From the NCBI GenBank assembly GCA_944325895.1, contig CALVCA010000006.1, positions 1-64,000 on the forward strand: DNA of 64,000 bases. Reading direction: 5' to 3'. The notes beneath the pieces were generated by a model, which saw nothing but the letters and a program-made list of their open reading frames with translations, was not told the DNA's origin and did no database searches. The stretch is from Candidatus Gastranaerophilales bacterium. GTDB taxonomy: Bacteria; Cyanobacteriota; Vampirovibrionia; Gastranaerophilales; Gastranaerophilaceae. Shown here one piece after another: positions 5,378-43,771 of the stretch. The translations under genes and the position numbers were made by a program. The number at the start of each line of letters is the position of its first letter. Position 1 is the stretch's first letter.

Positions 5378-5496
5378 AATAATTTTCCTCTCTTTTTATT
5401 ATTTTAACATTTATCATATATTTGTGCAAGTATTAAACACTCAACCGATATTAATTTATACAACAGTTGATAAAATTATTAAAAAAGGAGTTACAA

Positions 5497-8446: not shown

Positions 8447-8568
8447 CAAATCTATAAAAACTTTAATAATTTTTATAAAAATTTTAAAATCTCATACTTT
8501 AGTATGAAAAAAATTTTACCGGCATGCCTGATTTTTTATGATACAATTTTATATATAGGAGTAAAGCC

Positions 8569-8850
8569 ATGATAACAATAAAAGATGTAGAGCATGTTGC
8601 AAAACTTGCAAGGCTGGAATTGACGGAAGAAGAAAAAGAACTTTATACAAAACAATTAGGGGATGTATTAAAATACGTTGATCAAATGAATGAAGTTGAT
8701 ACAACAAATGTTGAACCTATGTCACATGCCGTTGATTTTTGTAACGTTATGAGAGAAGACAAAGTTTATTATGAACAAAGCAAAGAAGAATTAATGAAAA
8801 ACGCTCCGGAAGAAGAAAACGGATTTTTCAAAGTTCCGAAAATTAATTAA
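8569..8850 (+). CDS. gatC: Glutamyl-tRNA(Gln) amidotransferase subunit C
   Basis: GatC stabilises the GatCAB amidotransferase that converts Glu-tRNA(Gln), and often Asp-tRNA(Asn), to the amidated form. The 93-residue protein has the family start (IKDVEHVAKLARLELTEEE), the central DQMNEVDTTNVEPMSH segment and a C-terminal FFKVPKI. GatA and GatB are not in the window. TAGGAG precedes the ATG, and pyrG follows after 18 bp, so the two are probably co-transcribed. Confidence 0.92.
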   Translation: MITIKDVEHVAKLARLELTEEEKELYTKQLGDVLKYVDQMNEVDTTNVEPMSHAVDFCNVMREDKVYYEQSKEELMKNAPEEENGFFKVPKIN

Positions 8851-8868
8851 TATTTGTTGGGGTAAAGA

Positions 8869-10470
8869 ATGACAAAATATATTTTTATAACAGGCGGTGT
8901 AGTAAGCTCTTTAGGAAAAGGAATAATTGCCGCATCATTAGGGAAATTATTGCGTGCAAGAGGATTTTCAGTAATTAATCAAAAATTTGATCCGTATATA
9001 AACGTAGATCCCGGAACAATGAGTCCTTTTCAGCACGGAGAAGTATTTGTAACTGATGACGGAGCCGAAACAGATTTGGATTTAGGGCACTATGAACGTT
9101 TCACCGACACAAATTTAGGTAAATTTAATAATGTAACTTCCGGCAGTGTATACCAAAGAGTCATTGAAAAAGAAAGAAAAGGTGATTATTTAGGTGCAAC
9201 AGTTCAGGTAATCCCGCATATAACAAACGAAATAAAATCCCGCATAGCCGGAGCTACAAAACAATTTAACCCTGATTTTCAATTAATTGAAATCGGAGGT
9301 ACAATAGGTGACATAGAAAGTTTGCCTTTTATTGAAGCAATAAGACAATTCAAATCGGAAGCCGGAATAGGTAATGCAATTTCAGTTCATTGTACATTAC
9401 TGCCGTATTTGCCGACATCGGGAGAGTTAAAGACAAAACCTTCGCAGCACAGTGTAAGTGTTTTAAGAAGTTACGGCATACAGCCTGAGATACTGGTGTG
9501 CCGTACTACACGCTCAATCCCGAAAAATGAAAAAGAAAAACTCGCTCTGTTTTGTTCTGTAATGAAAGATGCGGTCGTTGAATGCAGAGATATGAAAAGT
9601 ATCTATGAAGTACCTTTGGCATTAGAAGAACAAAAAATGGCAGATGTAATTTTAAATATGCTTCAAGTCAAATCCCAAAAACCCGATTTAACGGGCTGGC
9701 AAAAACTTGTTGAAAAAATTAAAAACCCGAAAAAGACTATAAAAGTAGCGATTGCCGGAAAATACACAAAACTTTCGGATGCGTATATTTCCGTTGTTGA
9801 ATCATTAAAGCATGCCGGTTATGCAAATGACGCTTCAATAGAAATCAAATGGATAAATTCTGAAGAATGCGTTGATTTAAAACGCTGCAAAGAATTATTA
9901 AGCGATGTACACGCACTGGTTGTTCCCGGCGGTTTCGGAGTAAGAGGTATTGAAGGGAAATTAAATGCCATAAAATACGCAAGAGAAAATAACCTTCCGT
10001 TTTTGGGATTATGCCTGGGAATGCAGTGTGCGGTTATTGAATACGCAAGAAATGTTGCAGGTCTGAATGGAGCAAACTCTACTGAATTTGACGAAAATGC
10101 ACAGTACCCCGTTATTGATTTAATGCTTGAGCAAAAAAATGTCAAAGGCTACGGCGGGACAATGAGATTAGGTGCATATGACTGCATTTTAAAAAAAGGT
10201 TCAGTTGCACAAAAAGCATACGGAAAAGAGAAAATTTCAGAACGTCACAGACACAGATATGAAGTTAATAACGAATATTTAGAACAAATCGCAAAAGCCG
10301 GTTTGGTATTTTCCGGGATGTCGCCGGACGGAATGCTGGCAGAAGTTGTGGAATTACCAAAACTGGATTGGTTTGTTGCATCACAGTTTCATCCGGAATT
10401 TAAATCAAGACCGGAAAGACCGCATCCTTTATTCAAAGGTTTGATTGACGCAGCAGCAAAAAGGATATAA
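8869..10470 (+). CDS. pyrG: CTP synthase
   Basis: PyrG aminates UTP to CTP using glutamine and ATP. The N-terminal synthetase domain shows [13 protein letters not shown] (P-loop), [15 protein letters not shown] and [11 protein letters not shown]. The C-terminal class I glutamine amidotransferase domain has PGGFGVRG, the nucleophile elbow LGLCLGMQ with its Cys, and FHPEFKSRP with His and Glu. The 533-residue length is typical. GGGGT lies before the ATG, and the MFS gene follows after 2 bp. Confidence 0.97.
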
Positions 10471-11821: not shown

Positions 11822-12808
11822 TTATTTTAATATTGCATTTAAAATATCAGAAGCTGAAATCTTCAAGCAGTCCAAACTTTGACAAGAAGTTTGACGTTTT
11901 TCCCAAAGACATGGTTTGATGGGACAATTATCTCCGGCTTTTATGGCAGTAACTGACGGAGGGATAAGCTTTTCATCATCAGTAGGTCCGAAAATTGCAT
12001 ATGTTTTTACTCCAAGTGCAACCGCAACATGTAAAGGAGCTGAATCAGAGCATAAAAACATTTCAGCTTGAGCAATTAATTCAGCCAATTCACGCAAATT
12101 TTTTGTTTTACCGTACAAGTTTTCAAAATTATTTGTTTTAACTGTTTTCAAAATAGTTTGAATACATTCATCATCGTCAGGTCCGCCTGATAAAATTACT
12201 TTTTTCCCGCTTTGAACAAGTAAATCGATTACATCAGCCCAAACTTGAGCGGGAATTGTTTTTACAATTCCTTTTTGAATACTCATTTTGCTAACCCCGG
12301 GATGAATTAATACAGAATTTGGAATTTTTATTTGTTTATCCACATTAATTTGAGGAAGCTCCGTCACAATATCAGTCAACGGAGTTACAAGATCATGATA
12401 CATTTTTGCGGCATATTGATTTTTATTTAAATGAATAGCTCCAGTCAAAAGTATTCTGCTTAATTTTCCGCAGTCATATCCGATACGTGTTTTAATTCCT
12501 GTCAGCCATAAAATTACACTCATAAAAACACTTCCGCCCGAGGCTAATATGATATCAAATCCGCCTTTTTGAGCTTTTAAAATAAACTTTACAAGCTCAA
12601 GATACTTATTTTTAGTCTTAATATCAACAATAATCGTATTATCAATAACACCGGTTAAATCTTTTATTCCATTGCTCCTGCCTTCAAGAGCCAATGTTAT
12701 TTCGGCTGACGGAAACTCTTTTTTTAAAGAGATTAATGCCGGTAAAAATAAAATTTCATCACCAATTCCGCCAAAATTAACGGCAAGTATTTTATTAATT
12801 TTTTCCAT
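11822..12808 (-). CDS. Glycosyltransferase family 9 (heptosyltransferase-like)
   Basis: GT9 enzymes such as WaaC/WaaF add heptose to the LPS core. The 328-residue product starts KILAVNFGGIGDEILFLPAL, the N-terminal Rossmann domain of the family. The C-terminal domain has VLIHPGVS, VILSGGPDDDE and CSDSAPLHVAVALGVKTYAIFGPTD, the ADP-sugar site. An outer-membrane glycolipid role fits the Lpt genes further on. The frame is open another 71 codons upstream, but the ATG at 12808 has TATAAT ending 6 nt before it, so a leaderless mRNA starts there. Confidence 0.88.
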   Translation of the reverse strand: MEKINKILAVNFGGIGDEILFLPALISLKKEFPSAEITLALEGRSNGIKDLTGVIDNTIIVDIKTKNKYLELVKFILKAQKGGFDIILASGGSVFMSVILWLTGIKTRIGYDCGKLSRILLTGAIHLNKNQYAAKMYHDLVTPLTDIVTELPQINVDKQIKIPNSVLIHPGVSKMSIQKGIVKTIPAQVWADVIDLLVQSGKKVILSGGPDDDECIQTILKTVKTNNFENLYGKTKNLRELAELIAQAEMFLCSDSAPLHVAVALGVKTYAIFGPTDDEKLIPPSVTAIKAGDNCPIKPCLWEKRQTSCQSLDCLKISASDILNAILK

Positions 12809-12814
12809 AACTAA

Positions 12815-12842
12815 ATTATACAATAAAAATTTGTTGTATAAT
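12815..12842. promoter_or_regulatory. Overlapping divergent leaderless promoters
   Basis: Two perfect TATAAT boxes face outward: 12820-12815 on the minus strand and 12837-12842 on the plus strand. Each is followed by exactly 6 nt and an ATG (12808 minus, 12849 plus). Each -10 box lies where the other promoter's -35 would be, so polymerase can probably occupy only one at a time. Neither gene has a Shine-Dalgarno sequence. Confidence 0.75.
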
Positions 12843-12848
12843 AAATTT

Positions 12849-14384
12849 ATGGTAAACAAAGTCAAAACCGGAACAGTAATAGGATTAAACTCATACGAAG
12901 TATCAGTAGAAACAGACATACAAAACGGTTTGCCGTCATTTTCGGTTGTGGGATTACCTGATGCTGCAGTGAATGAAGCACGTGACAGGGTTAGATCTGC
13001 TGTCAAAAATTCGGGTTTCACATTTCCTTCAAAAAAAATTGTAATAAATTTGGCACCCGCTGACTTAAAAAAAACAGGAACAAGTTTTGATTTGCCGATA
13101 GCCGTCGGTATTGTTATAGAAGAAGGAGTTTTAGAAGCAGAATCAGTAAAAGACTATGCATTTTTGGGAGAATTATCATTAAACGGCGATTTAAGAGGGG
13201 TTAGAGGTGTTTTACCTGCAGTTATAGGATTAAAAGAAGCAGGTATAAAAAATGTTATTGTCCCTTTATGTAATGCAAAAGAAGCGGCCCTTGTGGATAA
13301 TATCAATATATACGGGGCAGACACGCTTTTTGATGTTGTTAATCATTTTACGGAAACTCCGCTTAAAAAATTTGACTCAAATATTGCGAATTATCTTACG
13401 GATTTTAATGAAAATTTTGAATATGATTTTAAGGATGTAAAAGGGCAGCAAAAAGCAAAGCGTGCCTTAGAAATAGCTGCTGCAGGAGGACATAATCTTT
13501 TAATGACAGGTTCACCCGGCTCAGGTAAAACCCTTATGGCAAAATGTTTTGCATCAATACTTCCGCCTTTGAATTTAAAAGAGGCATTAGAATTAACTAA
13601 AATTTACAGTGTTTGCGGACTCTTAACACCTGAAGAACCTCTAGTCAAGAAACGACCGTTTAGAATTGTACACCATACGGCATCAGCTAACGGTATTATC
13701 GGCGGAGGCAGCAACCCCATGCCGGGAGAAATTACTCTTGCACACAGAGGGGTTTTATTTTTAGATGAAATGGTTGAATTTCCGAGAAACGTTTTAGAAG
13801 TATTAAGGCAGCCGCTGGAAGACGGCGAAATTGTTATCTCACGTGCCAAACACTCCATAAAATATCCGGCGAAATTTATGCTTTTAGGAGCAATGAATCC
13901 TTGTCCGTGCGGTTATTTAGGAGATAAAGAAAAACAATGCACTTGTTCTGAATATATGATAAACAGATACCTTGCAAAACTTTCAGGGCCGCTTTTGGAC
14001 AGAATTGATTTACAAATTGATGTTCCAAGACTCACTGCTAATGAACTTTTATCCGCATCAACAGCACAGGAAAGCTCGCATGATATCAGAGACAGGGTTA
14101 TAAAAGCACGTAATATTCAGGCTGACAGATATAAAAATGAAAATATTTTTACTAATTCGGAATTAACTCCTGATTTAATCAAAAAATATTGTCAAATTGA
14201 TGAAAATTCACAGGAAATTTTTAAAGCTGCAATCGTAAAATATAGTCTTTCGGGAAGAAGATATGACCGAATTCTCAAAATTGCACGCACCATAGCTGAT
14301 TTGGACAATTCAAAGATTATCAAACAAAATCATCTTATGCAAGCCTTGCAATACAAAATGTTTGACAAAAACTCACTTGATTAA
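12849..14384 (+). CDS. comM: ComM/YifB-family AAA+ Mg-chelatase-like ATPase
   Basis: ComM is a hexameric helicase that promotes branch migration during natural transformation. The 511-residue protein has the N-terminal ribosomal-S5-like domain (SFSVVGLPDAAVNEARDRVRSA), Walker A GSPGSGKT near residue 221, Walker B LFLDEM, the GAMNPCPCGY zinc-like motif with further Cys at CTCSEY, and the C-terminal SGRRYDRILKIARTIADL segment. The start is ATG 12849, 6 nt after TATAAT and without a ribosome site; the frame is open upstream. Its 3' end overlaps the chromate-transporter gene by 12 bp. Confidence 0.93.
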   Translation: MVNKVKTGTVIGLNSYEVSVETDIQNGLPSFSVVGLPDAAVNEARDRVRSAVKNSGFTFPSKKIVINLAPADLKKTGTSFDLPIAVGIVIEEGVLEAESVKDYAFLGELSLNGDLRGVRGVLPAVIGLKEAGIKNVIVPLCNAKEAALVDNINIYGADTLFDVVNHFTETPLKKFDSNIANYLTDFNENFEYDFKDVKGQQKAKRALEIAAAGGHNLLMTGSPGSGKTLMAKCFASILPPLNLKEALELTKIYSVCGLLTPEEPLVKKRPFRIVHHTASANGIIGGGSNPMPGEITLAHRGVLFLDEMVEFPRNVLEVLRQPLEDGEIVISRAKHSIKYPAKFMLLGAMNPCPCGYLGDKEKQCTCSEYMINRYLAKLSGPLLDRIDLQIDVPRLTANELLSASTAQESSHDIRDRVIKARNIQADRYKNENIFTNSELTPDLIKKYCQIDENSQEIFKAAIVKYSLSGRRYDRILKIARTIADLDNSKIIKQNHLMQALQYKMFDKNSLD

Positions 14385-14903
14385 ATGTGCATAACCTGCC
14401 AAAAGTCCTGCAATAGCGGAAAATCCCAAATAAAAAAGCGGATCTCTTTTTTGTTTTGTACTTATAAAAAATAAAATTCCCAGTAAAATTATTCCTAAAA
14501 TATTTGCATTAGATATAAATAAATCAACACCAACTGCTGCTAAAAGCCCGCAGCCTGCAGGTTTTAAAGCATATATTGCAGCCTGGACATTTTTATTTGT
14601 TTTGAATTGCTCCAGTAATTTTGAAATAACTATTACTAAAATATATGAAGGCAAAATTATTGATGTGGTCGCAACAAGTGCACCTAAAATTCCTGACGTT
14701 GTAAAACCTGCAAATGTGGCAACGTTAACACCGACAGGTCCCGGAGTAATGGTTGATACAGCAATCATATCAGTTAATTGCTTTGCTGTGTACCATTTTT
14801 GAACTTCAGCTATATGAAATAAAAACGGCAATGTAGCATATCCGCCGCCATATGAAAACAATCCTATATGAAAAAACTGTAAAAATAATTCCCAATAAAT
14901 CAT
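14373..14903 (-). CDS. Chromate transporter, C-terminal-type half
   Basis: This 176-residue membrane protein is one half of a CHR-family transporter. It starts with the CHR motif FSYGGGYATLPFLFH, followed by TITPGPVGVNVATFAG and five to six hydrophobic helices. Short-chain CHR proteins work as pairs encoded by adjacent genes. Its start overlaps the stop of the upstream half by 4 bp (ATGA), so they are co-translated. The natural substrate may be sulfate or another oxyanion instead of chromate. Confidence 0.88.
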   Translation of the reverse strand: MIYWELFLQFFHIGLFSYGGGYATLPFLFHIAEVQKWYTAKQLTDMIAVSTITPGPVGVNVATFAGFTTSGILGALVATTSIILPSYILVIVISKLLEQFKTNKNVQAAIYALKPAGCGLLAAVGVDLFISNANILGIILLGILFFISTKQKRDPLFYLGFSAIAGLLAGYAHLIK

Positions 14904-15454
14904 TTTTTACACTCCGTAATTGGATGTTTTTTACGGTAAACAATTCCTGCAAGTATTGATGCAATAATAATTATTGCAGGTGAAACTTTAAAACAGGCAG
15001 ACAAAATAAATGCCGCAAAAAATATAACACAGGTAAATTTATCAACAACGCTTTTATTCCACATCTCTTTTGTTGCTAAATACAAAAGAATAATTACGCC
15101 TATACCGACACCCCAAAATATGCTTTGAATAAAACTCAAATGAACAATTTCTTCCAAAATTGAAGCAATGAGAACGATTGCCAAAAATGCCGGTGACACA
15201 ATTCCCAAAACCGCAGCCAAAGCCCCGATTTGACCTCTGAGTTTGTAGCCTACAAAAATAGACATATTAGCTGCAATAATTCCCGGAACAGACTGTCCCA
15301 GTGCGTAATACTCACATAATCCATCAGAATCAATCCATCCTTTCTTATCGACAAGTTCTGACTGCAAAAGAGGTAATATTACATACCCCCCGCCTAAAAG
15401 CAGCGTTCCTACCTTAAAAAATGTTTTAAAAATTGTATAAAATGATTTGTCCAT
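14900..15454 (-). CDS. Chromate transporter, N-terminal-type half
   Basis: The 184-residue partner half has the CHR motif LLGGGYVILPLLQSELV near residue 18, the following ALGQSVPGIIAANMSIFVGY segment split by helices, and about six membrane spans. It precedes the second half with a 4-bp overlap. No regulator of the ChrB type is adjacent. The start codon lacks a strong ribosome site; the gene lies 31 bp downstream of the SDR gene's coding end on the other side. Confidence 0.88.
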   Translation of the reverse strand: MDKSFYTIFKTFFKVGTLLLGGGYVILPLLQSELVDKKGWIDSDGLCEYYALGQSVPGIIAANMSIFVGYKLRGQIGALAAVLGIVSPAFLAIVLIASILEEIVHLSFIQSIFWGVGIGVIILLYLATKEMWNKSVVDKFTCVIFFAAFILSACFKVSPAIIIIASILAGIVYRKKHPITECKK

Positions 15455-15484
15455 AAAAATTATTTTTAACTCAGATAAATCTTA

Positions 15485-16183
15485 TTAAATTCCGACGCTC
15501 AAACCTGCACAAAGATTGATAGATTGACCTGTTATACCTTTTGCATCCTCAGAAATCAAATATCTGACAAGCTTCGCAATTTCTTCGGGCTGCACAAAAC
15601 GTCTTTGCGGAATAGTTTCCAAAATTTCATCTTTAAAAAATTCGGATAATTCAGCAGAATGCATACCCAATTCCGTATCAACCCAGCCGGGATTTATTGT
15701 ATTTACCGTAATATTATAAGAAGCAAGTTCCAGTGCCAATGCCCTTGTCAAACCAATAAACCCTGATTTTGTTGCAGAATATAAACTTGCATTAGCTTCT
15801 CCCATAATACCGGAAATTGAACCTATATTTATTATTCTGCCCCACTTTTTTTGTTTCATATTCTCACTTGCTTTGGCAATAAGCTTAACAGGAGCTATTA
15901 AATTAACGTTGAAAATTTCATGTATTTGTTCATCCGACATTTTATCAATCGCACCGTAAATATATTCACCGGCATTATTTATAAGTATATCGATTTTTTT
16001 GTCCTGAACATATCTTTCTAATGTTTCTACATCTTTTAACAAATCGCATACACAATAATTCTTATAAACTCTAAGTAACTCAACATTTCTGCCGGTTGCA
16101 TAAATATTACCGACTGATTTTAATTCCTCAGCAATTGCCTTTCCAATACCTTGAGTAGCACCCGTTACTAAAATATTAACCAT
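15485..16183 (-). CDS. Short-chain dehydrogenase/reductase, FabG-like
   Basis: The 232-residue protein has a classical SDR layout: VTGATQGIGKAIAEEL (NAD(P) site), DILINNAGEY, the catalytic Ser in NIGSISG, and YSATKSG with Tyr and Lys, then NTINPGWVDTEL and the C-terminal GQSINLCAG. It fits a 3-oxoacyl-ACP-reductase-like SDR, although many SDRs of this length act on other substrates. Its start overlaps the end of tcdA by 8 bp, so it belongs to the secG-tcdA-SDR unit. Confidence 0.85.
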   Translation of the reverse strand: MVNILVTGATQGIGKAIAEELKSVGNIYATGRNVELLRVYKNYCVCDLLKDVETLERYVQDKKIDILINNAGEYIYGAIDKMSDEQIHEIFNVNLIAPVKLIAKASENMKQKKWGRIINIGSISGIMGEANASLYSATKSGFIGLTRALALELASYNITVNTINPGWVDTELGMHSAELSEFFKDEILETIPQRRFVQPEEIAKLVRYLISEDAKGITGQSINLCAGLSVGI

Positions 16184-16919
16184 TTCTAAATTCCTCTATA
16201 ATATAGTATGCCATAAAAATCCCTGCAGTGCAAGCAACAAAAGGTGTTGATGAAGGTATTATTTTAGAAAATTCAATTTTTTCACCAAAACTTGTACAAA
16301 TTTCTTCTTTTTCCGATATTTTCTCTTTGGCAAATGGTTTTTCGCGGCTTGCGACAACCTGTATACCGCTTTCTATACCTAATTTTTTTAATTGATAGAT
16401 AACATTCGACACAAAAGGAGCATTTTTATTTTCAATATCTTTAATATCACAAATATATAATTGTGTAGGATTCATACGATTTCCGGCACCCATCGAACTT
16501 ATAACCGGTATACGATTTTCAATGCAGTACTGCAGCAGCGAAATTTTAGAACGCAAAGTATCAATTGCATCCGCAACAAAATCAGCTTTCGGGAATACGA
16601 GCTTTTCCGTATAAAAATCGCAAATCACATTTATTTTAACTTCAGGATTAATATCCTTTAAACGTTTTTCAAAAAGCTCAGTTTTTTTAATTCCGACAGT
16701 TGAATTCAGAGCAACAAGCTGACGGTTAATATTAGAATAAGACACCGTATCAAAATCAACTATGGTAATTTGTCCTATACCGGCTCTTACAAGCATTTCA
16801 GCACAATAGCCGCCTACACCGCCCAAACCGAATACGGCAACGTGTTTATTTCTTAAAAAACATTGAAAATCCTGTCCCCAAAACAACTCGTTTCGTGAAA
16901 AAATTTCGTCAGTTTCCAT
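16176..16919 (-). CDS. tcdA: tRNA threonylcarbamoyladenosine dehydratase (ThiF/HesA family)
   Basis: TcdA cyclises t6A37 in tRNA to ct6A using ATP. The 247-residue protein has the ubiquitin-E1-like nucleotide site GLGGVGGYCAEMLVRAGIG near residue 31, followed by DFDTVSYSNINRQ, and DAIDTLRSK for the adenylation site. ISSMGAGNRMNPT and the C-terminal membrane-like helix (ACTAGIFMAYYIIEEF) match TcdA better than MoeB or ThiF, which carry a CxxC zinc site absent here. It lies directly after secG. Confidence 0.85.
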   Translation of the reverse strand: METDEIFSRNELFWGQDFQCFLRNKHVAVFGLGGVGGYCAEMLVRAGIGQITIVDFDTVSYSNINRQLVALNSTVGIKKTELFEKRLKDINPEVKINVICDFYTEKLVFPKADFVADAIDTLRSKISLLQYCIENRIPVISSMGAGNRMNPTQLYICDIKDIENKNAPFVSNVIYQLKKLGIESGIQVVASREKPFAKEKISEKEEICTSFGEKIEFSKIIPSSTPFVACTAGIFMAYYIIEEFRNG

Positions 16920-17144
16920 CTATTTTACAATACCATACCCGAGAAGAAATGTGCAAACAATAAAGACACCGGCAACGATTGCCGTGAATTTATTCAGACC
17001 TTTTTCCGCACTTTTTTGTGATGTAAATATATGAGAAGCACCGCCAATTCCTGCTATTCCGTCACCTTTTGGCGAATGCAGTAAAATTAATATTATTAAA
17101 AACAGTGCTGATAAAATTTGAATTGCCCAAACAAATGTTAACAT
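16920..17144 (-). CDS. secG: Preprotein translocase subunit SecG
   Basis: SecG assists SecYE-SecA in export. The 74-residue protein has two hydrophobic helices (about 3-21 and 52-72) around a polar loop with LHSPKGDGIAGIGG, which matches the conserved SecG loop. Its ATG overlaps the stop of the NUDIX gene by 1 bp. SecA is encoded elsewhere in this window (43847-46474). Confidence 0.9.
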   Translation of the reverse strand: MLTFVWAIQILSALFLIILILLHSPKGDGIAGIGGASHIFTSQKSAEKGLNKFTAIVAGVFIVCTFLLGYGIVK

Positions 17145-17821
17145 TATTTTTTCTCCTTTTTAATAAAATGGGCACGTTTGGAATTCAATTTAATATTTTC
17201 AAACGTGTATAACCTGGCAGGTCTTTTTGAAGAAACTTTCGTATACTCGTTTAATTCAATAAGTCCTTCAGTACTTAAAGCTTTTTTCCTGAAATTACGC
17301 TTATCAAGTTTTTTATTCATTATTAACTCATAAACTTTTTGCATTTCAGTCAGTGTAAATTTTTCATTCAATAATTGATACGCAACCGGACAAAGTTCCA
17401 GTCTTTCACGTGTACGTTTAAGTGAATACTCTATAATTTCTCTATGGTCAAATGCCAAAGGCGGCAAATCGGAAACCTTATGCCAGCCGAGTTCAGGGGA
17501 TGTAATAATATTCAAATCTTCAGATCTTACCAATGCAAAATAAGCACATGTTATAACTCTTGCATTAGGGTGACGAAGCGGATCACCAAAAGTGTAAAGC
17601 TGCTCAAGATAAATATTGTCAACATTTGTACGTTCTTTTAATATCCTTAATGCAGCTTGATCCAAATTTTCAGATAATCTTACATATCCTCCGGGTATTG
17701 CCCATTTGTCTTTAAACGGTTCATTTGTACGTTTAACAAGCAAAACCTGAATGGCATTATTTTTCATAGTTAAAATAACTACGTCTACCGTTATCTCGTG
17801 TGTTTTTGTTTCATTAAACAT
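17144..17821 (-). CDS. NrtR-like NUDIX/winged-helix regulator
   Basis: The 225-residue protein has an N-terminal NUDIX domain (about 8-140; WAIPGGYVRLSENLD then RILKERTNV) and a C-terminal region that looks like a winged helix (about 150-215, with FTLTEMQKVYELIM and DKRNFRKKAL). That is the layout of NrtR, an ADP-ribose-responsive repressor of NAD genes. The NUDIX catalytic box is degenerate, with RILKER where REUXEE is expected, consistent with binding without hydrolysis. The ATG at 17821 has TATTAT ending 6 nt upstream and no ribosome site. Confidence 0.8.
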   Translation of the reverse strand: MFNETKTHEITVDVVILTMKNNAIQVLLVKRTNEPFKDKWAIPGGYVRLSENLDQAALRILKERTNVDNIYLEQLYTFGDPLRHPNARVITCAYFALVRSEDLNIITSPELGWHKVSDLPPLAFDHREIIEYSLKRTRERLELCPVAYQLLNEKFTLTEMQKVYELIMNKKLDKRNFRKKALSTEGLIELNEYTKVSSKRPARLYTFENIKLNSKRAHFIKKEKK

Positions 17822-17827
17822 ATCTCT

Positions 17828-17833
17828 ATAATA
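17828..17833 (-). promoter_or_regulatory. -10 box of probable leaderless transcript
   Basis: TATTAT on the minus strand, then AGAGAT (6 nt), then the ATG at 17821. It would drive the NUDIX-secG-tcdA-SDR unit. Confidence 0.55.
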
Positions 17834-17946
17834 TAATAAACAAAGTATTTTTCACCAATTTAAACAAAAAATACGTTAACATATATTAACAATTATGGCA
17901 ATTTTTGGATTATAAAATTTTTTAAATAAATACGGGGAAAATTAAA

Positions 17947-18921
17947 ATGTTTCATTATCCATTTATGATGAATAATTTTTTCATGCCGGCATTTATGCCA
18001 AGGTTTATGCCGATGTTTATGCCATCATTTATGCCAACGTTTATGCCGGCATTCATGCCGACGTTTATTCCGACAATATTTACGGGATTTATGCAGCCTT
18101 TCGTGCCGCAGCAATCAATATTTACATGTCAGCAAAATTCCGTTCCGGCAAATTCAACAAAGCGTGCAAGACGTAAGCAAAGAAAAAATGAACCTTTAGC
18201 AGAGGTAAAACAAAAAATTCAGGTTACTGAAACTTCATCTGCAGCACAAAAGCCGGAGAATAGAATTCAAACAACGAAAAAAGCTGAAAACACAACTAAT
18301 CAAACATCTCAAACGACTGTTGAAAAACCTGAAAATACGACATCCGTGGCACCACCGTCAAATACGACAAGTATTCAAACACAAACAAGCGAAACAGCAC
18401 CCGCTGAATCATCAAAAGTTACAACGGATAAAGTCAAAAAAAATCTCGGAAAAGAATTTTTAAAAGAAGTAAAAAAAGCTGCAAAAGAAATTAATTGCAA
18501 TTATAAAGATTTATTGGCACTTTTAAATTCGGAATCAAGTTTAAATCCGAAAGCAATAAACAATAGAACAAAAGCCGCAGGTCTGCTGCAATTTATGCCG
18601 TCAACAGCAAAAGATTTAGGCACATCAACGGAAGAAATACTGAACATGTCGGCAACAGAACAACTTGTGTATGTTGTAAAATACTTTAAAATACATAAAA
18701 AAATAGCCGGATTTAAGCCTAACGCAAGGCTTGATGCTGCGGATTTATACGCTTTAACATTTTTGCCGGGCAGAGCAAAACGTGAAATTCTAACGGACAG
18801 CAGCGAGAAATATTATAAACATAATAAAGGTTTGGATTTAGACCGTGACGGTAAAATTACAAAAACAGAACTTGCTGCGAGAATAAATCAAAAAAGAGTT
18901 AACGAATCCATTTTTTCATAA
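17947..18921 (+). CDS. Lytic transglycosylase with Phe-Met-Pro repeat head and EF-hand-like loop
   Basis: The 324-residue protein has three parts. Residues about 12-43 are eight four-residue repeats of the form F-M-P-x. A Gln/Thr/Pro-rich linker follows (about 60-155). Residues about 175-290 form a soluble lytic transglycosylase (SLT) domain with LLNSESSLNP (catalytic Glu) and AAGLLQFMPSTAKDLG. Near the end DLDRDGKITKTEL matches a calcium-binding EF-hand-type loop. There is no standard signal peptide; the Met/Phe/Pro head is the only candidate for targeting. It cleaves peptidoglycan glycan strands and sits directly upstream of minCDE. Confidence 0.8.
   Translation: MFHYPFMMNNFFMPAFMPRFMPMFMPSFMPTFMPAFMPTFIPTIFTGFMQPFVPQQSIFTCQQNSVPANSTKRARRKQRKNEPLAEVKQKIQVTETSSAAQKPENRIQTTKKAENTTNQTSQTTVEKPENTTSVAPPSNTTSIQTQTSETAPAESSKVTTDKVKKNLGKEFLKEVKKAAKEINCNYKDLLALLNSESSLNPKAINNRTKAAGLLQFMPSTAKDLGTSTEEILNMSATEQLVYVVKYFKIHKKIAGFKPNARLDAADLYALTFLPGRAKREILTDSSEKYYKHNKGLDLDRDGKITKTELAARINQKRVNESIFS
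17980..18075 (+). repeat. 12-bp in-frame tandem repeat coding F-M-P-x
   Basis: Eight consecutive 12-bp units of the form TTyATGCCnnnn encode Phe-Met-Pro-x; the last has Ile in place of Met. Copy-number change would stay in frame and lengthen or shorten the head of the transglycosylase. Confidence 0.9.
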
Positions 18922-26294: not shown

Positions 26295-27536
26295 TTATTC
26301 AAATGTTTTAAATGTAGATTCAATATTCTTTTCAATAACCTTTTGAACAGCTTCCATTTCAGTCTGCAAAGCCTGCTGCTCTGTATCAAGCTGTCTTAAA
26401 CGCAATTCAAGCGTTCTGTCTTGTTGTTGAATTTTTTCTGTTTTTGCGTTGATATCCGCTAAAGTTTTTTCATAAACCTGCATATCATAGTTATACTGAT
26501 TCATGGCATCATTATAAGCGTCTTCATCCGTGATTGTTTCTGTATTAAGCGGGAATGTTGCGGTTGAATTTTCATAACGAATGCTGTACGGACGACCTTT
26601 TTCATCAACATCGACAAAGGCTTTTTCTTGTTTTTCAATTCTTGTTTTAATATCTTCAGCATAATATTGTGCCAAAGGCGATTGATTTTCTGTCGGTTTT
26701 GTAGTATCGGGAGCACTTATAGCGGAAGATTCTAAATCTTCACGGCATGCAAAATAAGTTCTACCTTGATATTCCCAGGTATAAATTTCATCGGAGTTTG
26801 CAATATTTTGATCAGGGAATTGTTTACAAATTTCTTCATATGCTTCTTTTAATATCGGATCGGTTTCATCATATTCCGAAAGCTTACAATTGCCGACATA
26901 TGTAGGAGCTTGCGTATCTACATGATATTCTTTAGCTTCTCCTGCTTGTGCTATTGCATTATCCAAATCAGTTTTAGTCGTAAAATGCACTAAATCATTA
27001 TCATCTGTATAAGTATAAATATTTTCAGGAGTTTCGTCTGCTAATTCAGGATAATCTTTACAAATTCTTTCAAATATTTCACGCTGATCGGTATCTAAAG
27101 GATCGTAAACACTTGCAGTTGCACCGTTTACAGTATATTCATCATCTTGCTGCTCAACATTAGTTATATCGGACTGGACAGATTGATTGCCAAGAATTAC
27201 CTGAGGATTTGGCTTTGTTGTCTGAACCCCTGTAAATACATCGGCAAAATGATAATGCGATATCAAATAATTATATCCGTCGGGATCATTTTCTAAAGGA
27301 GTCATATCAGTAATAACTTCCGCATATGATCCGTCTTCATATGAATACTGAAGTGTTGTATAATCCTGAGTGCTTGGAGCAGTAGGTACTTCCAATGCTA
27401 AAAGTTCGTTAAAAGTATTTGCACTTTGGTTTGCTAATGCCGTACGTGCCTGATTTACCTGCTGTCCTTCGTATTCTACATTTGTCTTTCTCGCCGTCAA
27501 GCCTAAATACCTGGCTTGTGATGCTGCCATACCCAT
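26295..27536 (-). CDS. ASQAR-family protein, 413 residues
   Basis: This protein starts MGMAASQARYLGLTARKTNV, continues as a helix to about residue 50, has a variable, acidic centre (about 55-320), and ends with a long coiled coil finishing LDTEQQALQTE...VIEKNIESTFKTFE. The ends match the proteins at 34367-36190, 36444-38978 and 42140-43771; the centre does not. The centre holds two similar blocks (DYPELADETPENIYTY and QFPDQNIANSDEIYTW), an internal repeat. ATAGGAGG precedes the ATG. No signal peptide is seen. Conserved helical ends around a variable centre resemble axial or surface polymer proteins in architecture only. Confidence 0.75.
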   Translation of the reverse strand: MGMAASQARYLGLTARKTNVEYEGQQVNQARTALANQSANTFNELLALEVPTAPSTQDYTTLQYSYEDGSYAEVITDMTPLENDPDGYNYLISHYHFADVFTGVQTTKPNPQVILGNQSVQSDITNVEQQDDEYTVNGATASVYDPLDTDQREIFERICKDYPELADETPENIYTYTDDNDLVHFTTKTDLDNAIAQAGEAKEYHVDTQAPTYVGNCKLSEYDETDPILKEAYEEICKQFPDQNIANSDEIYTWEYQGRTYFACREDLESSAISAPDTTKPTENQSPLAQYYAEDIKTRIEKQEKAFVDVDEKGRPYSIRYENSTATFPLNTETITDEDAYNDAMNQYNYDMQVYEKTLADINAKTEKIQQQDRTLELRLRQLDTEQQALQTEMEAVQKVIEKNIESTFKTFE

Positions 27537-34366: not shown

Positions 34367-36190
34367 TTATGAAAAGGCTTTAAAAGAGCGTTCAACATTC
34401 TTTTCGATTACGCTTTTTATTGAATCATATTCGGTTTGAAGTGCATTGTGCTCGGTATCAAGTTTTTTAAGATCACTGTCGTATTTTTTGTCTTTAGCTT
34501 GAAGCTCGTTTAATTTTTGAGTATATTCAGCTTCGGCACGAGCTACTGCAACTTCGTCTTCAACTTCAACGATATCAGGGCAAGAACTGTATGTGGTTGA
34601 AGTCCATTTTGAAGTTTTAAGTCCTGTGCCTTCTTCACCTTGTTCAACGTATTTGACCTGTTCTAAGGTAACAACACCGTGTTCCAGTGCAAATTGCAGC
34701 CATTCTGAACTCGTGTAAAGATTATCTTCAAGGATTTTGTAATTATCACCGGCATCTTCCGATTTACGTTCACTTTCGCCGTTCATACGGTGCCAAAGAT
34801 TTGTGTACCATTCTGATCTTGCATCTTCTTCATCGGGAATTTTACTTGATGGCAGATTAGCTAAATCATCCAAATAATTTTGGTATAAAGCCAAACAATT
34901 TTGCCTCCACACATTGACAGCATCCCATTTGGTTTCCCATTCATCATGTCTTCTTTCAAAATCAGCCAACTCATCTAAATAATCCTGCAAAAATTTTTCG
35001 TTGAATTCTTGTTCACCGGCTTGCGTTAAACCTTCCAATTGCTGATAAAATCCTTCCCAAGCCTGCATCAATTCTTCAGGAGTTTTAACAGCAGCATTAT
35101 TTTTTGCAAAAGTTCCGTAAAATGCATGACTATTATCATTTACGCTTAAATAATTAATAACATCGCAATAAAGGTCTATCAAATACTGAATAACCTCTTG
35201 CACACATTCATATTTTAGTATATCTTCTTGTTTCAATCCGGCTAATAAATTTGTTGCTTCTACATCGCCGCTTCCTGCAAAGCCATAAAACAAACTATTA
35301 TTATACAATGTAGTTTTATCAGCAATAATAATAATACTTTGATCAGAATTAGATATCAAAAGACCATTTTGATTATTTTCAATTGCTTCTCCAAATCCGT
35401 TTGGTCCCCATATAAGATGACATAAATTGTGTTCCATATGCCAAATGCCGTTTGCATCATTACCGTTTACAGACGAATGACATGCAGAATTATTATAGGC
35501 TTGTGACAATGCAGCAAAATCAGGTAATGTAGGTTTACTAGGTCTATCAGTCGGTTCTGTCCCCGGGTTTTCGGGAATATTATTTAATTCGGTAATCAAA
35601 GTTCCGTATGATCCTGATTCGGAACCTTTCACCGGTATTTGACCAACCTGGCTTGCCCAGGATGCAAATTCAGACTCTGTCATATCGTCATTTGCTTTAT
35701 TCAGCCAATCCGTAATGACAAGCCCGCCAAAAGTAACAGTGGGTTTTTCTTCCGTTACGTTAAAATAATCCTCGTAATTAGTTCCGTATATACCTTCTAA
35801 ATTAGATGTGTAAAGCGGATTATCCGTTAAACTTACGCCGTATTTCAATACAAATTCGTTTAATGTATTGCTTTCTTCAAAATTCTTTGCATCTGTTCCG
35901 CTTATCAATAATTGTCCCTGCGTATTTACCAATCCGTACTGATTTTTTACATCCCCGTATTGATACATTACTGCGGCTGTTAATTCGCTCTGTACTGCAT
36001 TACCGTCTGTATTGTACTGCGTGTACATCAATTTGTTTGCATCCAATGCATTCATGTACTCTCTGCTTGCGTCCTGGGTTTTGTCAGCTAGACGCACTTT
36101 TGAATTCGCTATTTGCTGCGAATGCAATTCGTTATCCGATATTCGTGCTGTCAAACTAAGCAATCTTGCTTGTGATGCCGATAATCCCAT
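34367..36190 (-). CDS. ASQAR-family protein, left member of inverted pair
   Basis: The 607-residue protein starts MGLSASQARLLSLTARISDN. Its first 107 residues and last 123 are almost identical to those of the gene at 36444-38978, while the centre is unrelated. The centre is acidic and aromatic, with a Pro-rich PENPGTEPTDRPSKP segment, and the C-terminal third has coiled coil up to LDTEHNALQTE...VIEKNVERSFKAFS. No signal peptide is seen. GAAAGGAATAT precedes the ATG, and the shared TATGG promoter module lies about 80-124 nt upstream. Function unknown. Confidence 0.8.
   Translation of the reverse strand: MGLSASQARLLSLTARISDNELHSQQIANSKVRLADKTQDASREYMNALDANKLMYTQYNTDGNAVQSELTAAVMYQYGDVKNQYGLVNTQGQLLISGTDAKNFEESNTLNEFVLKYGVSLTDNPLYTSNLEGIYGTNYEDYFNVTEEKPTVTFGGLVITDWLNKANDDMTESEFASWASQVGQIPVKGSESGSYGTLITELNNIPENPGTEPTDRPSKPTLPDFAALSQAYNNSACHSSVNGNDANGIWHMEHNLCHLIWGPNGFGEAIENNQNGLLISNSDQSIIIIADKTTLYNNSLFYGFAGSGDVEATNLLAGLKQEDILKYECVQEVIQYLIDLYCDVINYLSVNDNSHAFYGTFAKNNAAVKTPEELMQAWEGFYQQLEGLTQAGEQEFNEKFLQDYLDELADFERRHDEWETKWDAVNVWRQNCLALYQNYLDDLANLPSSKIPDEEDARSEWYTNLWHRMNGESERKSEDAGDNYKILEDNLYTSSEWLQFALEHGVVTLEQVKYVEQGEEGTGLKTSKWTSTTYSSCPDIVEVEDEVAVARAEAEYTQKLNELQAKDKKYDSDLKKLDTEHNALQTEYDSIKSVIEKNVERSFKAFS
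34371..34741 (-). repeat. Outer inverted-repeat arm (3' end of left gene)
   Basis: These 371 bp match 38604-38974 in inverted orientation with two differences that I can see (one silent, one Ser/Ala). The arm codes for the C-terminal ~123 residues. Confidence 0.88.
35869..36178 (-). repeat. Inner inverted-repeat arm (5' end of left gene)
   Basis: These 310 bp match 36456-36765 in inverted orientation without a visible difference, synonymous positions included. Beyond 35869 the similarity stops abruptly. Confidence 0.9.
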
Positions 36191-36443
36191 ATATTCCTTT
36201 CCATATCACATGCGTATTCATGGAAACGGAATTTTTTCGGAAAGACTTTAGGGAAAAAAATACACTACGACCATACCATACAGGCATTATAACAGGGTTT
36301 CAACCCTTTTTAAAACATCTTTACAATTTGTTACATTAATACTATTTATTACAATTTCTTAATATTTACATATAAAAATTTAAAGACAACACTAAAAAAT
36401 ACCGTATAAGAAAATGTATCAATGCGGAAAGGAAAGAATTCAA
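36191..36443. other. Divergent intergenic region inside the inverted repeat
   Basis: This 253-bp gene-free stretch holds the minus-strand promoter module for the left gene and a weaker plus-strand candidate (TATAAG at 36405-36410, inside ATACCGTATAAG) for the right gene. Several GTTACA/TTACA boxes occupy 36321-36353. It is the only unique sequence between the two near-identical gene starts. Confidence 0.6.
36271..36338 (-). promoter_or_regulatory. Shared promoter module, copy 2 (two TATGG units)
   Basis: On the minus strand: AATGTAACAAATTGTAAA (36338-36321), TTTAAA (36314-36309), a 17-nt spacer, TATAAT (36291-36286), GCCTG, then only two TATGG units (36280-36271) and TCGTA. It drives the left gene (ATG 36190). 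The other two copies in the window have four units. Confidence 0.75.
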
Positions 36444-38978
36444 ATGGGATTGTCAGCATCACAAGCAAGATTGCTTAGTTTGACAGCACGAATATCGGAT
36501 AACGAATTGCATTCGCAGCAAATAGCGAATTCAAAAGTGCGTCTAGCTGACAAAACCCAGGACGCAAGCAGAGAGTACATGAATGCATTGGATGCAAACA
36601 AATTGATGTACACGCAGTACAATACAGACGGTAATGCAGTACAGAGCGAATTAACAGCCGCAGTAATGTATCAATACGGGGATGTAAAAAATCAGTACGG
36701 ATTGGTAAATACGCAGGGACAATTATTGATAAGCGGAACAGATGCAAAGAATTTTGAAGAAAGCAGCAATCTTTCTGAATTTTGTGCAAAATACGGAATA
36801 AGCACGGTAGTTAACCCAACATATACAGAAACATTACAAAATATTTACGGATCAAATTATGAAACAATAAACAATAATGACATAGATGAACTTGAAACCA
36901 TTAAAAATTTGATAAGCGGGAGCATTCAAAACATACAAAATGATTTGAATACAATTCCGGATTTATCAAATCCTGATGTATCACATAACACGACGCTAAA
37001 TGCAAACATCAGCAACATGGAAAATAATATAATAACAAATTTAGGCTCAGTTTTAAACATAACAAAAGATGATTTGGTAAACAAAACAGAGAAACTGGAC
37101 GGATTAGGAGCAGTCGGGAGTTATTTAAAGAATATCCATTACACCCCTGACACCTGGCCAACCGTCGGAGCTACAGACCCTGGTCCGCAGCCTCCGACAC
37201 CTACAGTAAAATATCCTACTTATCCAACAGAACCTCCTGTAATGGAAGAACCACAAAAGCCGAGTTCTATTGAACCGCAGCCGCCTGAATTTATTCCTCC
37301 AGATCCAGCGGACTACAGTGAAATATCCTACACTCAAACTGTTGGCGGCGGTATTACTGGCGGTTCAGTATCAAAAGATAGATATAATGAGATCTATGTA
37401 AGAGAAGACGGTCGAGGAATATTTGATGTTTTGAACCCTGATAATGATCTTAACCTGGATTGGTATTTAGAAATTTTAGCCCACCTTATCGTACCTCAAG
37501 ATGATATTGAAATTTTTGAAGGAGAAGCTGTCGGCGATCCTGATAATCGTATAATACTTATTGATATAGTACCTGATGAATATAAAAATAACAATTTAAC
37601 AACAACAACTGAGCAATCAATAGAATTAACATCAGAATTTTTAAATAACAGCAGCATTAATAATAGCGGAAAAATATGGGATTTTTGGTTTGGATATCTT
37701 GGAGATATTCAGGTTTACTGGGAAGCAGCATTGGAAATATTCAAAGAAGACAGTCTCCGAAGTAACGGTGCAATGGTTTCAACCGACCCGAGTGATTACA
37801 TAGCTCTTACTGAAGATTCTACTGAGGATGAAAAATTATTAAACAATTATAAATTCCATTCAAATGGTAATAAAACTCTTAAAACCTGGCATGAAAAAGC
37901 TAAAGATTTATATTATCTAGCTTTAAAGGTTTATAATGATGAGCAAAAAAGTTTTAACGACCAGGAATATACAGATGAAGAAAGAAATGCACTAACACAG
38001 CAAATAAACGAAGGAATTAAAGAATTACTTTATGAAGATGCTGAAGCAAAATCACAACTTCTGATTAGCGGTATAAAATTAAATGAAGAAGCATATCAAA
38101 ATGCTTTGACTAATGCATGGCAGGAATATGAAGCAAGCTCCGATTACCAAACATATCAACAAAATCATGACGACTGGGAACGAGAATGGGAGCAGTATGA
38201 AGAACACGATTACCCTCTTTGGGTGGCAAATCAGACAGCTTGGGCTCAATACTATAAAGATGTTGAACAGTATAAAATCGATTTGGCAAACTACAATTCT
38301 CAATGGGATAAATATAGAAACGAAACTATACCGAAATGGCAAGCTGAAAAAACAGCGTATGAACAAGCACTTGTTGTATATGAAGAAGATGTAGAAGCCT
38401 GGAAAAAAGATGTTGAAAGCTGGCTGAACAGTTTACAAAAAGCTTACTACGGAGTTTCGGGAATGATTGACTCTCTAAATAAAATAATTGACAAAGAAGT
38501 TCCGGATCCTGAAAATGCCATGTCAGAATGGTACACAAATCTTTGGCACCGTATGAACGGCGAAAGCACAACTAAATCCGAAGAAGGTAAATCAGGCAAA
38601 TACTACAAAATCCTTGAAGATAATCTTTACACGAGTGCAGAATGGCTGCAATTTGCACTGGAACACGGTGTTGTTACCTTAGAACAGGTCAAATACGTTG
38701 AACAAGGTGAAGAAGGCACAGGACTTAAAACTTCAAAATGGACTTCAACCACATACAGTTCTTGCCCTGATATCGTTGAAGTTGAAGACGAAGTTGCAGT
38801 AGCTCGTGCCGAAGCTGAATATACTCAAAAATTAAACGAGCTTCAAGCTAAAGACAAAAAATACGACAGTGATCTTAAAAAACTTGATACCGAGCACAAT
38901 GCACTTCAAACCGAATACGATTCAATAAAAAGCGTAATCGAAAAGAATGTTGAACGCTCTTTTAAAGCCTTTTCTTAA
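36444..38978 (+). CDS. ASQAR-family protein, right member of inverted pair
   Basis: The 844-residue protein shares its ends with the gene at 34367-36190. The centre is larger: an Asn-rich part (about 150-220), a Pro-rich segment (about 240-295, with repeated PQPP/PTYPTEPP types), then a Trp/Tyr/Glu-rich coiled region with recurring W-E-x-Y and Y-x-x-D-V units (about 560-670). The start at 36444 is chosen because GGAAAGGAAAG precedes it and it aligns with the left paralogue; the frame is open 10 codons upstream. No signal peptide is seen. Function unknown. Confidence 0.8.
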   Translation: MGLSASQARLLSLTARISDNELHSQQIANSKVRLADKTQDASREYMNALDANKLMYTQYNTDGNAVQSELTAAVMYQYGDVKNQYGLVNTQGQLLISGTDAKNFEESSNLSEFCAKYGISTVVNPTYTETLQNIYGSNYETINNNDIDELETIKNLISGSIQNIQNDLNTIPDLSNPDVSHNTTLNANISNMENNIITNLGSVLNITKDDLVNKTEKLDGLGAVGSYLKNIHYTPDTWPTVGATDPGPQPPTPTVKYPTYPTEPPVMEEPQKPSSIEPQPPEFIPPDPADYSEISYTQTVGGGITGGSVSKDRYNEIYVREDGRGIFDVLNPDNDLNLDWYLEILAHLIVPQDDIEIFEGEAVGDPDNRIILIDIVPDEYKNNNLTTTTEQSIELTSEFLNNSSINNSGKIWDFWFGYLGDIQVYWEAALEIFKEDSLRSNGAMVSTDPSDYIALTEDSTEDEKLLNNYKFHSNGNKTLKTWHEKAKDLYYLALKVYNDEQKSFNDQEYTDEERNALTQQINEGIKELLYEDAEAKSQLLISGIKLNEEAYQNALTNAWQEYEASSDYQTYQQNHDDWEREWEQYEEHDYPLWVANQTAWAQYYKDVEQYKIDLANYNSQWDKYRNETIPKWQAEKTAYEQALVVYEEDVEAWKKDVESWLNSLQKAYYGVSGMIDSLNKIIDKEVPDPENAMSEWYTNLWHRMNGESTTKSEEGKSGKYYKILEDNLYTSAEWLQFALEHGVVTLEQVKYVEQGEEGTGLKTSKWTSTTYSSCPDIVEVEDEVAVARAEAEYTQKLNELQAKDKKYDSDLKKLDTEHNALQTEYDSIKSVIEKNVERSFKAFS
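36456..36765 (+). repeat. Inner inverted-repeat arm (5' end of right gene)
   Basis: This is the partner of 35869-36178, 277 bp away, in inverted orientation. Including the first 12 coding bases the arms are 322 bp with two silent differences. Confidence 0.9.
38604..38974 (+). repeat. Outer inverted-repeat arm (3' end of right gene)
   Basis: This is the partner of 34371-34741. The two outer arms bracket both genes, so the locus is a nested double inverted repeat about 4.6 kb long. Confidence 0.88.
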
Positions 38979-42070: not shown

Positions 42071-42139
42071 AGCAAATCGTTATTTTTAAAGTTTTAGCTT
42101 AAAAATACCGTCATTCAACATGAATAAGAAAGGAAACTC

Positions 42140-43771
42140 ATGGGACTGGCGGCATCACAAGCAAGATTTTTAGCTATAACGGCACGAAAAGCCGATTGTG
42201 AATTCCGTTCTATGCAAATAGCACAGGACAAGCTTTCAGTTACCCGTAAATTAGCTGATGTAACGCAGCAATACCAAAACGCTATTAATCAGACAAAATT
42301 TGCCTGGGATTACGATTTAGATCAAGTTCCGGATTATGATTTATCATACGGATTGTTAATGCAGCCTACAACACTTAACAATTATAATCCTTATTTAATT
42401 ACAAACAGAACAGGGGCTGTTGTATTAAACAATAAATTAGCAAATGCAGCTACAGCAGCAATAAGTCGTGACGGTTCTCCAGCCCAAAGCTCTATGGCAG
42501 GATACAATAAATTTATAGACGCTTTATCCCGACACGGTGTTATAACAAGCAGTATGGCAACCAGCATTAAAGCTCTAGGCTCTGTTACAGATAAAAATGT
42601 TAATGAAAGTCAAGTCAACTACAACCCGAAAGCAGGTTACGGCTCTACGCCGCTTTCTAAAGACCCGGCACTTGCTACAAATATTATAGGATTGACTTAT
42701 AAGGCATCACAAAAAGAATATAAATTAGGTTTAGATTCAACAATCGGGGGAAATTATTCTGAAGACAGAACTTCCAATGACAAATTCCATCTCAGCGTAA
42801 ACGGAAGTTACGTTTCTTCTGGTGAGTTAGCTGATTTAACTCTTGGCGACTTGTTAGATAAAAATATAATATTAACTTATAGCGGTAAGGATGGTCAACA
42901 TGGAAGCGGACTTGATAAAAGTGGATTTATGACAGCGGTAAATGCTATTTTCACTAAAATAGATACATTTTTAACAGGTACAACAGAAATAAAAGGTTTA
43001 TTGGCTACATCCGATCCCCTCGTAAAAGAAGCTCTTGCTACAGCAAAACTTATGGTGCTAAATTCATATTTAAGTGAAAATAGCATTAAGATAATAAATA
43101 CAGATAAAAAAGATTCAAAAAATGCATCAAATGTTGCGGTAAATAATGCTTCAAGCAGCAACCTGATTGTTCAAGGACAATCAAAAGGTAACAAAAAATA
43201 TGATACAGTTGCAATAAGTTTATCTAATTTGTTATCATCATATCTGACATATTTTGATATGTGTTATACGGGTTTTGAGTCAAATTATTATGTAGGAACA
43301 GATGTTTCAAGTTCTTATTTTGTAACAGATGACCCTAATTACAACTATTTAATGACAAATAATGATGAGGCAAGCGAAAATTTGATTTATGCTGATTTTT
43401 ACATGCAGCTGTACAACAATATCTGCCACAACGGCTGGACAGAATGTGATGATATCGAGGATAATACATATTTACAAAATGCACTGAAAAACGGCACTTA
43501 TTTTATCACATCTTTAAACACAGACGGATATTTCTATCAAGGCAGATACAATGAAACAGACTGCATCGTGGAAGTCGAAGACAGCACAGCAATAGCGGAA
43601 GCCGAAGCTGAATTTAACGCTGAAAAAACAAAATTAACATATAGAGAAGAAAAACTCGATTTGGAAATGAAGAATTTAGACACCGAAATATCTTCACTAA
43701 CTACCGAATACGATTCCGTTAAAAACTTAATCAGCAAAAGTGTTGAAAAAGTGTTTACAATGTTTCAATAG
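42140..43771 (+). CDS. ASQAR-family protein, 543 residues
   Basis: The protein starts MGLAASQARFLAITARKADC and ends in a coiled coil finishing LDTEISSLTTEYDSVKNLI then KSVEKVFTMFQ, matching the other long members at both ends. Before the coil, DCIVEVEDSTAIAEAEAEF parallels PDIVEVEDEVAVARAEAEY of the inverted pair, so homology covers the last ~130 residues. The centre is Ser/Asn/Thr-rich and unrelated to the others. AAGAAAGGAAAC precedes the ATG. secA follows after 75 bp. Confidence 0.78.
   Translation: MGLAASQARFLAITARKADCEFRSMQIAQDKLSVTRKLADVTQQYQNAINQTKFAWDYDLDQVPDYDLSYGLLMQPTTLNNYNPYLITNRTGAVVLNNKLANAATAAISRDGSPAQSSMAGYNKFIDALSRHGVITSSMATSIKALGSVTDKNVNESQVNYNPKAGYGSTPLSKDPALATNIIGLTYKASQKEYKLGLDSTIGGNYSEDRTSNDKFHLSVNGSYVSSGELADLTLGDLLDKNIILTYSGKDGQHGSGLDKSGFMTAVNAIFTKIDTFLTGTTEIKGLLATSDPLVKEALATAKLMVLNSYLSENSIKIINTDKKDSKNASNVAVNNASSSNLIVQGQSKGNKKYDTVAISLSNLLSSYLTYFDMCYTGFESNYYVGTDVSSSYFVTDDPNYNYLMTNNDEASENLIYADFYMQLYNNICHNGWTECDDIEDNTYLQNALKNGTYFITSLNTDGYFYQGRYNETDCIVEVEDSTAIAEAEAEFNAEKTKLTYREEKLDLEMKNLDTEISSLTTEYDSVKNLISKSVEKVFTMFQ

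Follow-up and report, generated by a model that had tools for sequence, protein, structure and literature searches.

An opposed gene pair with shared ends

The window, a 64,000-nt stretch of DNA, is part of a 109-kb contig (C6) of a gut Gastranaerophilales genome (1.69 Mb, 99.8% complete; hereafter G000). Two genes face away from each other: gene A on the minus strand (34367–36190; 607 codons, 607 aa), with a center of the alpha class, and gene B on the plus strand (36444–38978; 844 codons, 844 aa; frame open from 36414), with a 559-aa center of the gamma class. Their 5′ ends form inner arms (A, 35869–36178, minus; B, 36456–36765, plus) that are identical over 310 bp, and these boundaries, given in a preliminary description of the DNA, proved exact on sequence comparison. 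The two copies mismatch at gene nt 9 and 12, are identical through nt 13–322 and diverge from nt 323. The 3′ ends form outer arms, previously described as ~371 bp with two differences, which is confirmed for 34371–34741 and 38604–38974; with the last codon included, the arms span 34367–34741 (minus) and 38604–38978 (plus) and differ three times in 375 bp, at positions 4, 61 and 342 counted inward from the stop codon, before diverging at 376. A weaker extension of 88 bp (34755–34842, minus; partner 38497–38584; 83% identity) lies further inward. The variable centers (A, 34843–35868, minus; B, 36766–38496, plus) are unrelated, as had been claimed, apart from short stretches; that of A shares 40–50% amino-acid identity with other species. 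Past both stop codons the sequences are likewise unrelated. Recombination between the inner arms would invert a 277-bp segment (36179–36455), comprising the 253-bp intergenic region and 12 bp of each gene. Homologous genes that point away from a shared control segment and nearly match at their 5′ ends, the arrangement of a RecA-type promoter-inversion locus, are thus present.

Counted from search matches, the genome holds nine members of this protein family, four of them inside the window: A, B, a paralogue at 42140–43771 (plus) with the same sigma28-like motif as A and B (42087–42111), and a shorter conserved paralogue of 413 aa at 26295–27536 (minus) without the motif. Several members occur in each of the 16 genomes of the genus (16/16), and the residues invariant across the family lie within the N-terminal ~115 and C-terminal ~150 residues. 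A locus-specific oddity was ruled out by the same architecture in dispersed copies and in several other genera, with borders near nt 500 in the latter.

Homogenization of the ends across related species

The search for relatives covered 15 species of the genus, one genome per species, the close relatives being MAGs of Candidatus Gastranaerophilales. A divergent pair is found in four species (G000 and the relatives G005, G006 and G011); in the remaining relatives the gene is solitary and in most cases sits between genes for a lytic transglycosylase (SLT) and an M20-type peptidase. Pairs in relatives are flanked by SLT and M20 peptidase genes and that of G000 by tmk and a U32 peptidase gene, and no family gene stands beside tmk in the relatives. 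Two contigs of G003, both beginning at codon 31 of the arm, have near-identical 5′ and 3′ ends and different centers, as would be expected of an unresolved pair.

None of the 37 fourfold-degenerate sites in the 5′ arm differs between A and B (0/37), whereas this species differs from relatives at 11/25 and 13/28; the identity of the arms is therefore not ordinary conservation, and chance is excluded. In each of the four pair-bearing species, the two copies resemble each other at one end or both much more closely than they resemble their counterparts in other species: identity within the pair, given for the first and last 210 nt, is 99/99% (G000), 97/93% (G005), 94/97% (G006) and 81/97% (G011), against ~70–87% between species. 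The G000 copies are sisters in the 5′ tree and the 3′ tree alike (100/99 or better); those of G006 are sisters at 100/100 in the 3′ tree and weakly, at 90/75, in the 5′ tree. Ends in G005 and G011 are mosaics, with homogenized tracts of ~215 bp, and G011 shows divergence between its 5′ arms. Fourfold sites and end trees together rule out ancient conserved ends without homogenization; with the within-pair identities, they bear out the earlier proposal that the arms are being homogenized.

A dedicated recombinase could in principle invert the segment at short sites inside the arms, site-specific recombinase switches of a comparable kind being common in bacteria. We regard this as highly improbable: the homology is 310 bp long and not confined to short sites, the tracts of conversion differ between species, and a Pfam scan of the ~40 ORFs in the window recognized no recombinase, in line with the original remark that the window holds no such gene.

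The homogenized, near-identical arms also account for the breaks at these genes in assemblies of the order. Many MAG contigs end or begin inside family genes (L057–L103, L135, L136, L192, L193), and in G014 contigs C8 and C11 are both interrupted at one and the same base of an arm.

Exchange of the centers as cassettes

The alpha class of centers comprises gene A of G000 (G000_A) and the A genes of eight other species; the beta class, G005_B, G011_B, G010 and G012; and the third, gamma class, G006_B and, distantly, gene B of G000 (G000_B), whose best relative is this second gene of the G006 pair (E 4e-10). Over ~900 bp (nt ~350 to ~1250) the centers of G005_B and G011_B show ~99% identity, against ~80% for their own ends and flanks, the signature of a recent between-species transfer delimited by the conserved/variable junctions. 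G010 and G014, which share 98% identity over 8.8 kb, provide a same-locus comparison: the match continues at 96% across the upstream gene and the promoter as far as gene nt ~183, beyond which the centers are unrelated (beta in G010, alpha in G014); in the final ~216 bp the two genes again match, at 87%. Comparing the centers in related genomes had been suggested as a check, and both cases represent the cassette exchange that it sought; judged from these alignments, centers are traded as cassettes between genes and species. Between the same two genomes (G010, L050; G014, L045), a ~6-kb block running from the M20 peptidase gene to a 288-aa gene (11850–18350) is inverted, beginning just behind the family gene.

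Within G000, the dispersed copies C4:52374 and C6:100799 are 97% identical over 557 bp and have different middles. Such conversion, where no promoter can flip, favors the main rival reading: duplication, gene conversion and center replacement without any regulatory switching, inversion being a rare evolutionary event without function. We consider this account doubtful, on grounds that concern the control segment and are given below.

A phage origin of the cassettes was also considered and set aside, a single IMG/VR contig with a 65-residue relative being too little basis. That contig (L189) encodes a relative of the family N-terminus and may be either prophage or host DNA.

Promoter-like elements of the control segment

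Each gene is preceded by a sigma28-like motif, TAAAG-N16-CCGT (A, 36226–36250, minus; B, 36381–36405, plus), located inside the stretch that an inner-arm inversion would turn round. The motif TAAAG-N15/16-CCGT(A), or a close variant, lies upstream of nearly every family copy in the genus and resembles the flagellar sigma28 consensus. The genome encodes a FliA-type sigma factor (FliA_WhiG match above its cut-off at C5:61537); together with the predicted promoters of A, B and most paralogues, this matches what is expected of sigma28-dependent late flagellar genes.

An additional element, E, points toward gene A (36276–36314, minus). It consists of a sigma70-like TTTAAA-N17-TATAAT whose spacer contains GGGTTGAAACCC, with TATGG repeats behind it at ~36266–36281; the upstream region of gene B is of the S type, with the sigma28-like motif. 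E is found on one side only of each divergent pair, and dispersed copies are also of E (C4:52374) or S type (C6:100799). Its general form, a TTTAAA-like hexamer, 17 nt with GGGnTGAAACCC, TA(T/C)AAT and then TATGG repeats, gave 26 matches in 11/16 genomes of the genus, compared with 0 matches for a reversed control pattern. Because E is recurrent in the genus and its matches lie mostly 80–130 nt upstream of small genes, we read it as a sigma70-like regulon promoter of the genus.

The preliminary description had proposed that an inner-arm flip could make an ON/OFF choice between the two genes. Simple ON/OFF control by one promoter is not supported in that form by the sequence, a conserved sigma28-like motif being present on both sides and the extra sigma70-like promoter on one. 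With this arrangement a flip would exchange regulatory slots, and the expected outcome, predicted from the motifs, is a swap of expression slots. Two features argue against conversion without switching: the arms flank exactly this asymmetric control segment, and E- and S-type upstream regions recur in other copies, so that inversion would change the upstream signals of both genes.

Several observations concern these elements beyond the gene pair. The conserved promoter-like arrangement TGTAACnAAATGTAAA..TTTAAA..GGGCTGAAACCC..TATAATGCCTGTATGG precedes small genes lacking an assigned function at 26 sites in the genus, those in G000 being C6:22416–22446 (in the window), C6:36276, C4:33171, C26:18782 and C2:63969. 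Several of the small genes have N-termini like MNVNPVSFSG or MAINSVNNYV, and the genes may constitute an undescribed regulon. The pentanucleotide tandem repeats directly after the −10 box (TATGG, TATGT, TAGGA) vary in copy number between species and occur at the same place in L038, L040, L043, L049, L122 and L193; their copy number could modulate transcription.

Orientation of the intergenic segment

When all pairs were oriented with the alpha-class gene on the left, the intergenic region of G000 aligned with those of G005, G006 and G011 on the minus strand (69–81% identity; E 1e-52, 7e-33 and 1e-49), and the latter three aligned plus-to-plus among themselves. The upstream region of the alpha gene is of the S type in the eight other genomes examined and carries E in G000 alone. 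The segment of G000 is oppositely oriented to those of three relatives, which in terms of these alignments is the product of either one inner-arm inversion or an exchange of both centers; a swap of both centers would look identical to an inversion. The G000 pair occupies a different chromosomal place from those of the relatives, so the flip cannot be anchored on the outer flanks. The inner-arm inversion proposed earlier gains from the inverted segment, its ON/OFF component being the part that lacks support. The single orientation of the three other pairs fits rare rather than frequent flipping, and with the diverged 5′ arms of G011 it lends weight to conversion without switching.

Two orientations of the segment relative to the centers are seen between species, one of them represented by a single, possibly mis-oriented assembly (G000). 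The perfect 310-bp arms exceed short-read length, and the orientation in the G000 assembly could be the assembler's choice, a short-read assembler being unable to phase a 277-bp loop between such inverted repeats. Many MAG contigs of the order end in these genes, and the two G003 contigs begin at the same arm codon, as an artefact of this kind would predict. We nevertheless judge an artefact unlikely, as the 109-kb contig passes through the locus; a contig running through such a repeat locus usually needs spanning pairs or long reads. The homogenized ends and the cassette exchange are in any case independent of orientation.

Predicted structure and flagellar-type export context

Neither A nor B has a Pfam or NCBIfam match above cut-off, PHROGs matches are weak, and the family profile has no sequence match in the PDB. 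The predicted structure of A (pLDDT 90) contains a long N-terminal helix (residues 2–49) and a long C-terminal helix (residues 546–606); the model of B has similar, confident ends and a poorly predicted center. Long terminal helices around a variable middle, a flagellin trait, are thus present in both models, with coiled-coil matches that are unspecific. A fold search with A returned generic coiled coils only, including flagellin and FlgL, at Z ~7–8, not above unrelated coiled coils, and did not identify the fold. By sequence family the proteins are not flagellins: A and B lack Pfam matches above cut-off, and PF00669 (Flagellin_N) has no match in the genome.

FliP is encoded at C6:102779, beside the family paralogue C6:100799, and the adjoining ORFs were read as FliO-, FliQ- and FliR-like from length, order and hydrophobicity, without a family search. 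Contig C43 carries FlgB-, FlgC- and FlgG/FlgF-like genes, the first two recognized by the Flg_bb_rod profile and the latter two by our own reading. Incomplete sets of flagellar genes, lacking a filament, have been noted in some gut Melainabacteria (PMC3787301, PMC4040986). We surveyed 60 genomes of the order, the same set in the searches for the variable-center family (MGLSASQAR proteins; E ≤ 1e-20), FliP and flagellin. In the taxonomic family of G000, MGLSASQAR proteins and FliP are each present in 38/38 genomes and flagellin in 0/38; in the other families, MGLSASQAR proteins occur in 0/22 genomes at E ≤ 1e-20, flagellin in 21/22 and FliP, often of two kinds, in 22/22. One 87% complete genome has neither MGLSASQAR proteins nor flagellin. 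The two are mutually exclusive across the 60 genomes, with FliP in 60/60; the pattern follows one split between families and hence represents one evolutionary contrast, not 60 independent ones. In two genomes that belong to a different genus of the family (G016 and G033), the family gene did not lie within ~10 kb of FliP; nor, in flagellated families, did it lie near their second FliP. Flagellated families often have two FliP types (about 262–277 and 222–244 bits), of which the MGLSASQAR-bearing family keeps only the second.

From this genomic context, the A and B proteins probably leave the cell via the flagellar-type export apparatus. The original label of surface-type proteins can be sharpened accordingly to candidate substrates of a flagellar-type export system, their location being predicted. 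More tentatively, one gut Gastranaerophilales family may have lost flagellin, kept the exporter and come to use multi-copy, variable-center exported proteins instead, perhaps filament-forming, with expression slots swapped by recombinase-free inversion. The setting is a common, little-studied gut lineage with a flagellar exporter and without the filament protein, and the locus offers a concrete candidate for what the leftover exporter secretes. Flagellin-style antigenic diversity, with fixed ends and traded middles, seems to have arisen here in proteins not recognizable as flagellins.

Proposed mechanism and relation to known systems

We favor, with moderate confidence, the reading of A and B as a gene pair for variable-center exported proteins whose ends are recombination sites and whose expression slots are exchanged by inner-arm inversion. 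The shared ends would serve as sites of homologous recombination, presumably of the host RecA type. A crossover between the inner arms would invert the asymmetric 277-bp control segment and, if both promoters work, make the two centers trade slots: the E slot offers a sigma70-like regulon promoter in addition to a sigma28-like motif, the S slot a sigma28-like motif alone. Either pair of arms would stay alike through gene conversion, new centers would enter through arm crossovers with paralogous or incoming DNA, and selection may favor the resulting diversity. This candidate switch is testable in existing metagenome reads.

The closest known systems are the Campylobacter fetus sap locus and the C1-V-C2 variation of flagellin. 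By analogy the locus would work like both; it is not filed as flagellin because of the sequence-family result above. In C. fetus, a promoter inverts between opposed sapA genes via their conserved 5′ ends by RecA-dependent recombination. The sap (S-layer) locus consists of homologous genes with conserved ends (PMC3887049), a feature shared by the genes described here. Unlike sap, the present locus has a loop of just ~277 bp and a sigma28-like motif for each gene; its 3′ ends are homogenized as well, its proteins match no known family, and its switching is a prediction. Flagellin H-antigen variation involves conserved C1/C2 ends and a variable center (PMC7018530); the present family resembles it in its conserved terminal helices, its unrelated, discrete center classes and the movement of cassettes between species by recombination ending in conserved parts. 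It differs in lacking a Flagellin_N match in the genome and a PDB sequence match, in having centers of 300–560 aa, and in the two copies facing across a shared control region.

Salmonella Hin/fljBA has an invertible promoter that decides which flagellar antigen is made, Hin being a site-specific invertase encoded in the segment. The present locus likewise has a promoter segment between repeats as a candidate invertible switch, but its repeats are formed by coding ends, and the window yielded no recognizable recombinase. At the vmp expression site of relapsing-fever Borrelia, gene conversion replaces the variable part, guided by blocks of homology that lie upstream and downstream (PMC4534519). 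Homology blocks on both sides of a variable part would act similarly here, whereas vmp relies on silent archives and one expression site and both copies here are intact genes with upstream signals. Separately, L120 contains a repetitive ~200-aa open frame close to the end of the contig and, before a pilin-like gene, a RHSERSGATHVDTL-type repeat that is read through (8505–9116 and 5114–5400), both possibly repeat elements.
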